A DNA stretch of 64,000 nt from Hymenobacter ruricola (GTDB lineage Bacteria; Bacteroidota; Bacteroidia; Cytophagales; Hymenobacteraceae): positions 496,001 to 560,000 of the forward strand of contig NZ_JADQDM010000001.1 of assembly GCF_015694525.1 (NCBI RefSeq), read 5' to 3'. The notes beneath the pieces are model-generated. The model saw only the letters and a program-made list of their open reading frames with translations, searched no databases and was not told where the DNA came from. Shown here piece by piece: positions 36,745 through 40,369 of this stretch. Numbering within the stretch: position 1 is the first letter of the stretch; each line of letters starts with the position of its first letter. The translations under genes were made by a program, and so were the position numbers.

Positions 36745-36885
36745 TCTTCTGCTTGGCGTTAGCGCCGAATGGCCAGCGACTGCGCCGCTGGTGTTTCAGT
36801 CAGTGGCGCAGGTAACGTTATCAAGCTGGACTTGACAAAATTAGCACGTTGATTTAGATACAGTTGTAAAGGTTTGGGTGATTAG

Positions 36886-36901
36886 TACGAAAGAATTCGT
36901 A
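36886..36901. promoter_or_regulatory. operator 1 of the BlaI-type regulator
   Basis: TACGAA, four bases, TTCGTA: a perfect inverted repeat (18 bp with the flanking G and C), upstream of the -33 element. One of three. Confidence 0.75.
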
Positions 36902-36908
36902 CTCCGTG

Positions 36909-36941
36909 TTTGCAACTACGAAGCGTTTCGTAATATCTTTG
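36909..36941 (+). promoter_or_regulatory. promoter of the BlaI/M56 operon
   Basis: TTTG (36909-36912), 21 bases, TATCTTTG (36934-36941): a full match to the phylum's promoter consensus. The start point is predicted near 36948, leaving a leader of about 40 bases before the regulator ATG. Operators flank and occupy it. Confidence 0.75.
36917..36932. promoter_or_regulatory. operator 2 of the BlaI-type regulator
   Basis: TACGAA, four bases, TTCGTA, lying exactly in the spacer between the -33 and -7 promoter elements. Confidence 0.78.
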
Positions 36942-36949
36942 CTGCATCC

Positions 36950-36965
36950 TACGAAATAATTCGTA
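36950..36965. promoter_or_regulatory. operator 3 of the BlaI-type regulator
   Basis: TACGAA, four bases, TTCGTA (18 bp palindrome with flanking C and G), beginning at the predicted transcription start, 33 bases from operator 2 (operators 1 and 2 are 31 bases apart). Confidence 0.78.
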
Positions 36966-36986
36966 GCAACCTCACGTTTCGACCAC

Positions 36987-37412
36987 ATGAGCAAAGCACC
37001 GCCCCCCAAACCTACGGATTCCGAGCTGGAAATCCTGCACGTGCTGTGGCAGCACGGGCCGGCCACCGTGCGGGCCATCAACGACCACCTCAGCCAGCGC
37101 CGTCAGGCGGAAGTGGGCTACACCACCACGCTCAAAATCCTGCAGCTGATGCTGGAAAAGGGCTTGGTGCGGCGCGACGATGCCGACCGCAGCCACGTGT
37201 ACCGGGCCGCGGTACGCGAGCAGGAAACCCAGGGCCTGCTCCTCGACAAGTTCGTGGACGCCACGTTCGGCGGCTCGGCCCTGAAGCTGGTGATGCAGGC
37301 CCTGGGCAGCCGCCAGACTTCGGCCGACGAGCTGGCCCAAATTCGCCGGCTGCTCAACGACATTGAAATCCAAAATTCCACTCCTAATCCCAACGACGAT
37401 GACCGCGCTTGA
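36987..37412 (+). CDS. BlaI/MecI/CopY-family repressor
   Basis: A 141-residue winged-helix repressor: PTDSELEILHVLWQHGPATVRAINDHL in two parts, YTTTLKILQLMLEKGLVRRDD (recognition region) and a C-terminal dimerisation helix pair (GLLLDKFVDATFGGSALKLVMQALG). In BlaI the scissile site lies in the dimerisation part. It overlaps the M56 gene by 14 bases, the standard BlaI-BlaR1 order. Three TACGAA-N4-TTCGTA palindromes around its promoter are the expected binding sites, so it represses its own operon until the membrane partner is activated. Confidence 0.95.
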   Translation: MSKAPPPKPTDSELEILHVLWQHGPATVRAINDHLSQRRQAEVGYTTTLKILQLMLEKGLVRRDDADRSHVYRAAVREQETQGLLLDKFVDATFGGSALKLVMQALGSRQTSADELAQIRRLLNDIEIQNSTPNPNDDDRA

Positions 37413-40314
37413 GAATTTCGCTTCGCCCGCGCTGACGCGGGCCCTGGGTTGGACGCTCCTGCACTCGCTGTGGCAGGGGGCACTGGTGGCGGCCGTGCTG
37501 GCGGGTGCGCTGCTGCTGCTGCGCCGCCAGCGCGCCGAGGTGCGCTACGTGGCTTCGGCCGGGGCGCTGGGCATGATGGTGGCGCTGGCCGGCATCACGT
37601 TTGGGCTGTATTTCCGGGCCGGCGGCGGACCGGCAAAAAGCGAGGTGCTAACCACGCGCATCGTAGAATCTGCCCGCACGGTCCCATCGAAGCAGGGCGA
37701 GCGGCCGGCGTTGCGGCCCGCTACTACGACTGAAACCGTGACCACCGTGGTGGTATCGGCTGCTGACAAAGCATCGGCCGGGGCAGAGGCGCCAGTTTTG
37801 ACGGCCCAGAACCAGGCTGACGCTTCGGCCATGCCCAACTGGCTGGCCGTGGGGCTGCGGTATTTCGACAAGCATATGCCGCTGCTGGTGCTGGGCTGGC
37901 TGCTGGGCCTGCTGGCCATGAGCCTGCGCATGCTGGGCGGGCTGCTGTACGTGCAGCGGCTGCGGCGCTACCGCGTGCGGCCATTGGGGGCGGTGTGGCA
38001 GGAGCGGCTGGCGGCGCTGGCGGCCCGCAGCGGCGTGCGCCGCCCAGTGGCGCTGCTAGAGTCGGCGTTGGTGCAGGTGCCGCTGGTGGTGGGCCACGTG
38101 CGCCCCGTGATACTGCTGCCCCTGGGCGCGGTGGCCGGGCTGTCGGCGGCGCATCTGGAAGCCATTCTGGCCCACGAGTTGGCCCACGTGCTGCGCCGCG
38201 ACTACCTCGTAAACCTGCTGCAAACCGTGGCCGAATCCTTGTTCTTCTACCACCCCGCCGTGTGGTTTATGGCCCGCTGCGTGCGCACCGAGCGCGAAAA
38301 CTGCTGCGACGACACGGCCACGGCCTTGTGCGGCGGCGACTCGCTCCGGCTGGCCCGGGCCCTCACGGCGCTGGCCGAGTGGAGCCAGAGCGCCGTGGTG
38401 ACCACCTCGCCGCGCCTGGCGCTGGCGGCCATGGGCGGCCGCGGCGCGCTCCTGAACCGGGTGCGCCGGCTGGTGCAGCGGCGCCCGGCGGCGCCCACGC
38501 TGGCGGAAGGCTGCATGGCCGGGGCGCTGGTGCTGGGCGGGCTGGGCCTGCTGGGCGGCAGCGTGGCGTTGGCCGGGCCGCTTTCGCGGCCGGCAGCTGC
38601 TAGTGCCCAGCCGGCTGCTTTTGATTGGCAAACCGGTCCGGTACAAAACGCCGCCCGGCCTACTGCTCCGGCCGACACTACGAAGCGGGCCGCAGCCGCG
38701 AAATCAGGGGCTGCCGCGACGCCAGCGGCTGGCACCGCTGCCACAGAGGCCGCGGCGGCGAAAGCCCGTGAACTGGCCGCGGCTGATGAAGACACCCACG
38801 GTTCGGATGCGACGATGGGCGACACCATCTTCCGCCGCAACGTGCGGGAGCGCCGCGACGGCCGCCGCGTCATTGTCGACGGCCGTGAGGCGGCGCCGGT
38901 GCTCGCCGGGCCCGGCACAGTGGTGGTGACGAAAGACAAAAAAGGCCGGATAACGGACTTGGTGGTGAATGGCCAGCGCGTGGAAACCGCCACCGGCAAA
39001 GTCAAAGCCAAAAGCAAAAACGACAAGGATGCGCAGGTAGAAGTCATCCAGGTCGACCCCGCTTCCGGGCCTCAGTCGCGCACCTACGTCTACGGCGGCA
39101 ACTCCAACGGCAACGCGCCCTACGTGTACCAGTGGCCGCAGGCCAACGGCGGCACTTACGTCGAGCTTGGCCCACTGGCGGCATCCCCGCAGGGGCTCAA
39201 TGAACTGCGCCGCTTGGCGCCCCGGTCCAACGGCCGCACGTTCGTGGAGGTAGCCCCGGGCAATTTCAACCAACTCTGGAACCGCAACAGCTCCGGCAAT
39301 TTCACCCAAACCTTCCGTTCCCAACTGCCCGGCGGCCCGGCCGGCCCCGACCCCAGCCTGGCCCAAACGCGCGACGCCCTGCGCGCCGCCGAGCGCGGCC
39401 TGCGCGAAGCCAGCGCCGTGAAAAACCTGAGCGCCGAACAGCGCAAGCGCCTCAACAGCCGCCTCGATGAGGTGCGGGCCCAACTCAAGCGCCTCGACAG
39501 CGCCCCGCACAGCCTCCGCTTCGGCGACCAGTCGGCGAGCAGCTTCCGTAGCATCGAGTCGCAGGGCCTGCAGGAGGAGCTGCGGGCGCAGGAGGAAGAG
39601 CTGCGCGCGCGGCAGCAGGAGCTGCGTGACCGCCAGCAGGAACTGCGCGACCGCGCGGCCGAAATGGGGGAGCGCCTCCGCGAAGAGCGGGAGGAGCAGC
39701 GGGAAGAGCGCAGCCGCGTGGCAGAGCGCCGCAGCGTGAACGAAGAAGTGCTGGTGAGTGAGCTGCTCAAGGACGGCCTCATCAAAGACCGCAACAACTT
39801 CCAGTTTCGCCTTACGGCGCGCGAGCTGGTGGTAGATGGCAAAACGCAGCCCCAGAAAGTGCTGGACAAGTACGTGAAGCTGTACGAAAAGAACAGCGGC
39901 CGCAAAATGACGGCCACCAGCTCCGTATCGGTGGGCCGCAACGGGACTTCCACCACCATCAGCGACCATGATGCCGCCCCGCCGCGGCTGCCCCGCCCGC
40001 CGCGCGCCCCCATGCCTCCCGCCCCGATGGGGCCAAGCGGTGCCCTGGCGCCGCCACCACCCGCGCCGCTACTGGACGCGCCCGCGCCGCCGCGCCCGCC
40101 CCGCGCCCCGAGCGTGGACACCCGCGCGCTGCGTGACGAGCTGCGCAAAGACGGCCTGGTTGGCGAAAACGACAAAAGCTTCAGCCTGCAACTCAACTCT
40201 TCGGGCCTCACGGTGAACGGCAAAAAAGTGTCGGACGACCAGGCGGCCAAATACCGCAAGCTGCTGGATGCCCGCGAAGGCAGCACCTACAACATGTCCA
40301 TCTCGCTCGACTAA
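37399..40314 (+). CDS. M56 (BlaR1-like) membrane metallopeptidase with long C-terminal sensor
   Basis: A 971-residue membrane protease expected to relieve repression by the adjacent BlaI-type regulator. Spans lie near residues 14-36, 45-70 and 165-190. The gluzincin site is HELAHVLRRD (about 258), followed by the RTERENCCDD region (about 297), and another span lies near 375-396 before a very long exported part. That part has an Ala-rich linker, a domain at about 470-620 with Asn/Gly-rich loops, a charged coiled coil of RQQELRDRQQELRD type (about 720-780), and two copies of a small domain (VSELLKDGLIKD at 783-835; LRDELRKDGLVGEN at 905-964) separated by a Pro-rich linker. There is no penicillin-binding domain as in BlaR1. 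Confidence 0.92.
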   Translation: MTALENFASPALTRALGWTLLHSLWQGALVAAVLAGALLLLRRQRAEVRYVASAGALGMMVALAGITFGLYFRAGGGPAKSEVLTTRIVESARTVPSKQGERPALRPATTTETVTTVVVSAADKASAGAEAPVLTAQNQADASAMPNWLAVGLRYFDKHMPLLVLGWLLGLLAMSLRMLGGLLYVQRLRRYRVRPLGAVWQERLAALAARSGVRRPVALLESALVQVPLVVGHVRPVILLPLGAVAGLSAAHLEAILAHELAHVLRRDYLVNLLQTVAESLFFYHPAVWFMARCVRTERENCCDDTATALCGGDSLRLARALTALAEWSQSAVVTTSPRLALAAMGGRGALLNRVRRLVQRRPAAPTLAEGCMAGALVLGGLGLLGGSVALAGPLSRPAAASAQPAAFDWQTGPVQNAARPTAPADTTKRAAAAKSGAAATPAAGTAATEAAAAKARELAAADEDTHGSDATMGDTIFRRNVRERRDGRRVIVDGREAAPVLAGPGTVVVTKDKKGRITDLVVNGQRVETATGKVKAKSKNDKDAQVEVIQVDPASGPQSRTYVYGGNSNGNAPYVYQWPQANGGTYVELGPLAASPQGLNELRRLAPRSNGRTFVEVAPGNFNQLWNRNSSGNFTQTFRSQLPGGPAGPDPSLAQTRDALRAAERGLREASAVKNLSAEQRKRLNSRLDEVRAQLKRLDSAPHSLRFGDQSASSFRSIESQGLQEELRAQEEELRARQQELRDRQQELRDRAAEMGERLREEREEQREERSRVAERRSVNEEVLVSELLKDGLIKDRNNFQFRLTARELVVDGKTQPQKVLDKYVKLYEKNSGRKMTATSSVSVGRNGTSTTISDHDAAPPRLPRPPRAPMPPAPMGPSGALAPPPPAPLLDAPAPPRPPRAPSVDTRALRDELRKDGLVGENDKSFSLQLNSSGLTVNGKKVSDDQAAKYRKLLDAREGSTYNMSISLD

Positions 40315-40335: not shown

Positions 40336-40369
40336 GAAGGCCGGCTTTCCGTTGGGAGCCGGCCTTTTT
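40336..40369 (+). terminator. terminator of the BlaI/M56 operon
   Basis: AAGGCCGGCT and AGCCGGCCTT stem followed by T residues, 22 bases after the M56 stop. Confidence 0.85.

Follow-up and report, generated by a model that had tools for sequence, protein, structure and literature searches.

In the staphylococcal BlaI/BlaR1 and MecI/MecR1 systems, a BlaI-family repressor is encoded beside an M56 zinc protease. The locus described here, part of a 64-kb stretch of DNA (the window, meaning the whole stretch that was analyzed), shares this pairing and, in all likelihood, repression of its own operon. It differs from the staphylococcal pairs in having an array of three sites on one promoter, alanine in place of phenylalanine at P1' in both partners, and an M56 protein in which, unlike BlaR1 and MecR1, no β-lactam sensor domain is detected. 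The operators differ as well: those of the staphylococcal systems are of the TACA/TGTA type, according to PMC7253601, whereas those of the window read TACGAA-N4-TTCGTA.

Two further families invite comparison. The C. thermocellum repressors BlaI_0696 and BlaI_1845 resemble the window system in their small autoregulatory regulons and ordered inverted-repeat arrays, but they use GTCTAT/GACTAT half-sites, with space for two dimers per target, as opposed to TACGAA and three in the window; operators also differ between BlaI groups (PMC8457756). The CopR/CopY copper repressors are homologous, have more than one operator, and are discussed in terms of polymerase occlusion, but their operator is RNYKACANNTGTMRNY and they carry metal-binding Cys-X-Cys motifs (PMC7253601). 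A CopY model scores the window BlaI at 39.1 bits, below its cut-off of 121.95. A literature search, with most subscription papers outside its reach, found no description of the operator, the triple array, or the Phe-to-Ala change; the matches in PMC12578637 proved to be the name of a gene deletion, a chemical code, and a reference, and those in PMC10470040 two rows of tabulated data. We regard the window system, as judged from its sequence, as a variant of the BlaI/M56 switch that appears not to have been described previously.

In the reading that we favor, with a probability of about 80%, the region upstream of blaI would be the promoter through which a BlaI/M56 proteolytic switch regulates itself, occluded by BlaI bound to three operators. 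BlaI dimers would sit beside the -33 element, within the -33/-7 spacer, and at the transcription start, together keeping RNA polymerase off its promoter contacts; with polymerase excluded from the promoter, blaI-M56 would be nearly silent and self-limiting. On sensing an envelope signal, the M56 protein would cut BlaI through its zinc protease, probably at Q104-A105, so that the operators are vacated and blaI-M56 is switched on, together, in some relatives, with outer-membrane barrel-type genes that carry the same operators.

The blaI-M56 unit and its predicted promoter

The unit comprises the following features, given in window coordinates.

36886..36901, no strand assigned: operator 1, a perfect copy of TACGAA-N4-TTCGTA upstream of the -33 element
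36909..36912, + strand: -33-like TTTG, between operators 1 and 2
36917..36932, no strand assigned: operator 2, a perfect copy of TACGAA-N4-TTCGTA within the -33/-7 spacer
36934..36941, + strand: -7 box TATCTTTG, between operators 2 and 3
36946..36948, + strand: predicted transcription start region, placed from the -7 box
36950..36965, no strand assigned: operator 3, a perfect copy of TACGAA-N4-TTCGTA just past the predicted start
36987..37412, + strand: BlaI-type repressor, 141 aa (PF03965, 86.3 bits, cut-off 22.6, E 2.4e-24)
37399..40314, + strand: M56 membrane metallopeptidase with a HELAH motif (PF05569, 97.8 bits, cut-off 31, E 8.3e-28)
40337..40369, + strand: 10-bp perfect hairpin and T run after M56, found by eye; probable terminator of the blaI-M56 unit

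The Pfam scores of the two proteins (for M56, from a run started at codon 2, with the start ATG at 37399) bear out their identification as a BlaI/M56 pair in the initial annotation. The window BlaI matched five solved sequences, including 2g9w, 1sd4, and 1sd6, and an M56 profile built from 20 relatives aligns to the BlaR1 structures 8exp/8exs; HEXXH and the downstream glutamate are invariant in a 20-sequence alignment. The M56 reading frame overlaps blaI by 14 nt. At the distal hairpin, a terminator scan with loops limited to 8 reported only a weaker overlapping stem; in total the scan found 9 terminators, which is no excess over the shuffles (mean 7.3).

Upstream of the unit lies a gene for FolB (dihydroneopterin aldolase) and past the hairpin a DUF5916 gene, both by Pfam assignment. 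Among 78 loci recovered as relatives in a BlaI search, several of which end early, an M56 match is present in 76, FolB in 55, and DUF5916 in 40. The possibility that DUF5916 is the third member of the operon was rejected because the strong hairpin separates it from M56 in the window.

The Bacteroidota promoter consensus, as given in two sources, consists of -33 TTTG and -7 TAnnTTTG (PMC7366714, PMC2483708). The window has both elements, and they occupy the positions that had been claimed for them, TTTG between sites 1 and 2 and TATCTTTG between sites 2 and 3. A sigma-70 promoter scan found none. Operator 3 had been placed on the predicted start; in the window it lies just downstream of 36946-36948, but such an overlap would be expected in those relatives where sites 2 and 3 are 27 or 28 bp apart.

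Putative operator arrays in the genome and in relatives

The three perfect palindromes begin exactly at 36886, 36917, and 36950, as had been reported, with start-to-start distances of 31 and 33 bp. They remain the only matches to TACGAA-N4-TTCGTA in the window even when two mismatches are allowed, and none of 100 dinucleotide shuffles yielded three or more sites. Across the 5.96-Mb genome the perfect motif occurs six times, in two groups of three (reversed control, 0). The second array (C24:398351/398378/398408, spacings 27 and 30) stands directly 5' of a paralogous blaI/M56 pair, so that each of the six perfect sites precedes one or the other of two blaI/M56 pairs, both belonging to a single BlaI clade. 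An outer-membrane barrel gene lies 3' of the C24 pair. A chance origin of the palindromes was ruled out by the shuffles, the reversed control, and a triple-array control (described below).

With one mismatch allowed, the genome yields 10 sites against 8 in the reversed control; the four imperfect sites therefore represent no excess, and a larger regulon in this genome was rejected on the same comparison. The initial annotation had offered the palindrome as a motif for finding the rest of the regulon, and the genome scan shows that it serves this purpose, retrieving just the two blaI/M56 operons here and other targets in relatives. A relaxed TACGA-N5/6-TCGTA pattern gives 12 sites in the genome (control, 8), 8 of which are accounted for by the three BlaI promoters. 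The pair at C24:466515/466675 forms no array, and one of its sites lies inside a coding frame.

The Hymenobacter group makes up 62 of the 78 BlaI loci (L049-L108, L125, and L126, with L076 included although named only to family). Three TACGA-N6-TCGTA sites precede blaI in 61 of the 62, the middle site being degraded in L085. Half-site invariance is built into this result because the sites were searched with the TACGA/TCGTA pattern; the full TACGAA/TTCGTA form is found at 113 of 183 sites (by position, 33, 29, and 51 of 61), and the four bases at the center are variable. Among the other 16 loci (Adhaeribacter, Fibrella, and MAGs of several phyla), three relaxed sites occur in 5, and the others have two, one, or none, two loci being without any. 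In two Aminicenantes MAGs (L109 and L119), the same palindromes upstream of blaI flank TTGACA-type promoters.

The position of site 2 relative to the promoter is nearly constant in the 61 Hymenobacter-group arrays. TTG begins 7 nt 5' of this site in 57 loci (6 nt in two, not found in two), and TTTG begins 4 or 5 nt 3' of it in all 61, although the TA of TAnnTTTG, which the window has, is absent in the 33-bp relatives inspected. Given these near-fixed offsets, site 2 would fill the promoter spacer, with sites 1 and 3 outside both elements, a layout that supports the earlier proposal of operators arranged round a promoter, one that is probably of Bacteroidota type.

The distance between sites 1 and 2 is 31 bp in 59 of the 61 loci (29 and 30 bp in the other two), and sites 2 and 3 are separated by 33 bp in 26, 32 bp in 1, 28 bp in 11, and 27 bp in 23. 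DNA has a helical repeat of ~10.5 bp per turn, at which 31 bp corresponds to ~2.95 turns, 33 bp to ~3.1, 28 bp to ~2.7, and 27 bp to ~2.6. A spacing of about three helical turns, as first noted, thus describes the window and the 31-bp interval but fails for sites 2-3 in 34 of the 61 relatives and for the 27-bp spacing of the C24 array. Strict phasing of all three sites is unsupported, since sites 2 and 3 are mostly 33, 28, or 27 bp apart. Judged from these sequences, array spacing follows promoter anatomy, and site 3 keeps no constant helical phase.

Candidate targets, BlaI groups, and the identity of the binding protein

Within the genus, 114 of 120 genomes contain at least one perfect site (358 sites in total versus 37 for the reversed control), and the six that do not all carry an orthologous BlaI with three TACGA-N6-TCGTA sites. 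We fetched 30 of the genus-wide site loci, one per genome, as a sample. BlaI adjoins the sites in 17 of these, and in eight (L019, L022, L030, L032, L035, L039, L040, and L042) the sites lie upstream of outer-membrane-type proteins, whose fragments all match CarboxypepD_reg above cut-off and in five cases the TonB plug. Five of the eight have two sites that flank a -7-like box of TTTG or TTTA type, with a spacing of 23 bp in four loci and 24 bp in one; the other three have sites 57 bp apart (two) or a 31/27 triple (one), with the upstream site imperfect in each. A switch of this kind would be linked to outer-membrane-type genes and not to β-lactamase, and its palindrome would constitute an explicit operator code for the BlaI group throughout the sampled Hymenobacter genomes and at some loci of other genera and phyla.

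A MarR-family gene stands beside the two-site array of an outer-membrane-type gene in two loci (L022, 1005-1436; L030, 1601-2035), and BlaI control of these MarR-adjoining targets is less sure for that reason. The remaining five non-BlaI loci of the sample are L027, L028, L031, L033, and L048. Before a SusC-like gene in L033 (about 1488-1529), a long perfect inverted repeat is centered on TACGAA-N4-TTCGTA, and it looks like a hairpin and not an operator array; in L027 (1501-1537), a pair of sites with a spacing of 21 bp precedes the gene for a small protein that has no Pfam match.

The window genome encodes four BlaI proteins. The window and C24 proteins separate from the C25 and C12 groups, with branch support of 100/100, in a midpoint-rooted tree built from 42 sequences, of which 25 belong to the window clade; this analysis carries a long-branch warning. 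Upstream regions were compared for the best 30 of 53 C25-type and the best 30 of 54 C12-type matches, from 61 genomes each. Of the 30 C25-type loci (L129-L158), 27 have two copies of TACGA-N5-TCGTA, always at a spacing of 19 bp, and the other 3 have one copy. Of the 30 C12-type loci (L159-L188), 26 have one or more copies of ACTAA-N4-TTAGT, and none has the TACGA type. Neither the N5 nor the ACTAA palindrome occurs in any of the 62 window-type loci. The C25-type operator, as seen for instance in L017 (about 1862-1895), has a spacer one base shorter than that of the window operator. The C12-type BlaI group adjoins an M56 gene, and its ACTAA-N4-TTAGT is often followed by a box like TACGTTTG (L015, about 1890-1930).

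A helix that, by analogy with the MecI/BlaI structures, would be the DNA reader has GYTTTLK.LQLM in both the window and C24 BlaI, where C25 has PYTTLASTLRNL and C12 has AYNTVSTIIRIL. Because palindrome type tracks BlaI group, the promoter under the control of each BlaI is most likely its own; this assignment is resolved to the BlaI group and treats the window and C24 proteins as one. A search for the triple-array pattern that was blind to BlaI, run over 395 Bacteroidota genomes, returned 10 arrays, distributed over 9 genomes, against 0 in the control; two of the arrays are those of the window genome. A BlaI gene lies downstream of nine of the ten, at a distance of about 430 bp in L192. The tenth (L194, 1501-1572, the same place as L048) has no BlaI nearby, and a LytTR response regulator follows about 330 bp on.

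How the sites act, and through which protein, could be explained in other ways. The initial annotation envisaged cooperative, near-complete silencing by three in-phase dimers, which on one face of the DNA would touch and bind together, with helical phase setting the spacing. The 31-bp interval at 2.95 turns and the 33-bp interval of the 26 loci at 3.1 turns suit such an arrangement, and the C. thermocellum BlaI targets have ordered inverted-repeat pairs in what is apparently a strict requirement (PMC8457756). In the form proposed, however, it is not supported, because only the 31-bp interval is near-fixed and sites 2 and 3 are out of phase in over half of the loci, at ~2.6-2.7 turns; the C24 array, with 27 and 30 bp, departs from it as well, and the near-fixed TTG and TTTG beside site 2 would be sufficient alone to explain the spacing. 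We therefore consider phase-set cooperativity unlikely, though worth keeping in view, and promoter occlusion would account for the layout better. It is far less probable that the palindromes are bound by some other regulator, with BlaI no more than a neighbor. A MarR-family protein would be the candidate at the two-site outer-membrane-type arrays, since the adjoining gene matches PF12802/PF01047 above cut-off in both of the loci of this kind for which ORFs were listed (L022 and L030), and the array in L194 has no BlaI at hand. Against this stand the position of the arrays, immediately upstream of blaI at 61 of the 62 Hymenobacter-group loci, the distinct palindromes that two further BlaI groups have at the same place, and the frequency of FolB as the upstream neighbor of the blaI arrays.

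The probable cleavage site and the M56 partner

When the window BlaI is aligned to S. aureus BlaI and the S. aureus residue numbers are placed on the alignment, Q104-A105 falls at the position of the N-Phe cut. For the staphylococcal system, cleavage of BlaI is reported at the Asn101-Phe102 bond and self-cleavage of BlaR1 at Ser283-Phe284, the F284A variant being autocleavage-deficient; Phe at P1' is described as almost invariant in BlaI, whereas in the autocleavage loop bulky hydrophobic residues are preferred (PMC9834060). The P1' residue is Ala in all 64 Hymenobacter-group BlaI proteins of the clade, the window and C24 proteins among them; outside the group it is Ala in 14 of 16 (Val and Leu once each), and the QALG stretch is invariant in 63 of 63 proteins. 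On the protease side, the M56 profile alignment sets LALA-A opposite BlaR1 LSHS-F284. The loop residue, taken by text pattern, is Ala in 60 of 60 readable M56 proteins from the 64 of the Hymenobacter group (4 not found). Among the 16 outside it, where the alignment is unsure, the residue is A in 3, M in 3, L in 3, F in 1, V in 1, unassigned in 1, and not found in 4. Because the loop residue is mixed there, the joint switch to Ala is firm only inside the Hymenobacter group.

The C25 and C12 groups keep phenylalanine. Of their 60 BlaI proteins 58 could be read at this position, and all 58 have LVSFF or LISFF; of their 60 M56 loops 59 were readable, every one with a Phe, although the aligned P1' residue of L154 is Leu. 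The text-pattern analysis behind these readings, which also took in loci of the window clade, picked wrong stretches in a few rows (e.g., L062, L088, L122, and L124). By contrast, 65 of 72 readable loops of the window clade are without Phe, and Phe is present in the other seven: L060, where it lies one position later, and six loci outside the Hymenobacter group. A Tyr-x3-Leu/Ile motif, which corresponds by alignment to BlaR1 Tyr261/Ile265, is present in the same 59 C25/C12 loops and absent in 67 of 72 of the window clade. Tentatively, and with slightly more doubt than conviction, we suggest that the clade is a separately specialized proteolytic switch, in which the BlaI cleavage site (L-V-M-Q-A-L-G) and the M56 loop (L-A-[LM]-[AS]-A) would have changed jointly from Phe to Ala at P1', with loss of the pocket Tyr, and the pair would be insulated from other BlaI/M56 pairs at the level of both protease and DNA. 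With three operator types and two cleavage-site types in one cell, the BlaI paralogues offer a ready-made system for studying how cross-talk between related proteolytic switches is avoided.

The same substitutions could be read differently. A BlaI cleavage site that lacks the almost invariant Phe does not assure S. aureus-like cleavage, and M56 might not cut BlaI at the classical place, so that the Phe-to-Ala lineage would act by binding, cut elsewhere, or leave another protease to finish. The autocleavage deficiency of S. aureus BlaR1 F284A (PMC9834060, as above) and the uniform Ala at the aligned P1' of both partners agree with such a departure, but the invariant HEXXH and downstream glutamate count against it, as does the invariant QALG, which is what would be expected of a recognized substrate. 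We judge non-classical action improbable, a shade more so than phase-set cooperativity, and retain cleavage of BlaI by its M56 partner, probably at Q104-A105, as the preferred reading.

No penicillin-binding-protein-like sensor domain was detected in either M56 protein, both of which gave only M56 and M48 Pfam matches at E<=0.001. The blaR1_generic model scored M56 at 72.1 bits, below its cut-off of 400; no Pfam domain exceeded its cut-off in the outer (predicted C-terminal) part of the window M56, and a PDB fold search with the predicted C-terminal part returned no match at E<=0.001. For the last 280 residues of M56, AlphaFold2 predicts a long helix together with a small helix/strand domain that is present twice (mean pLDDT 79, pTM 0.40). 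In this predicted outer part (window 39472-40311), the long helix is charged, and a Pro-rich linker joins the two small-domain copies.
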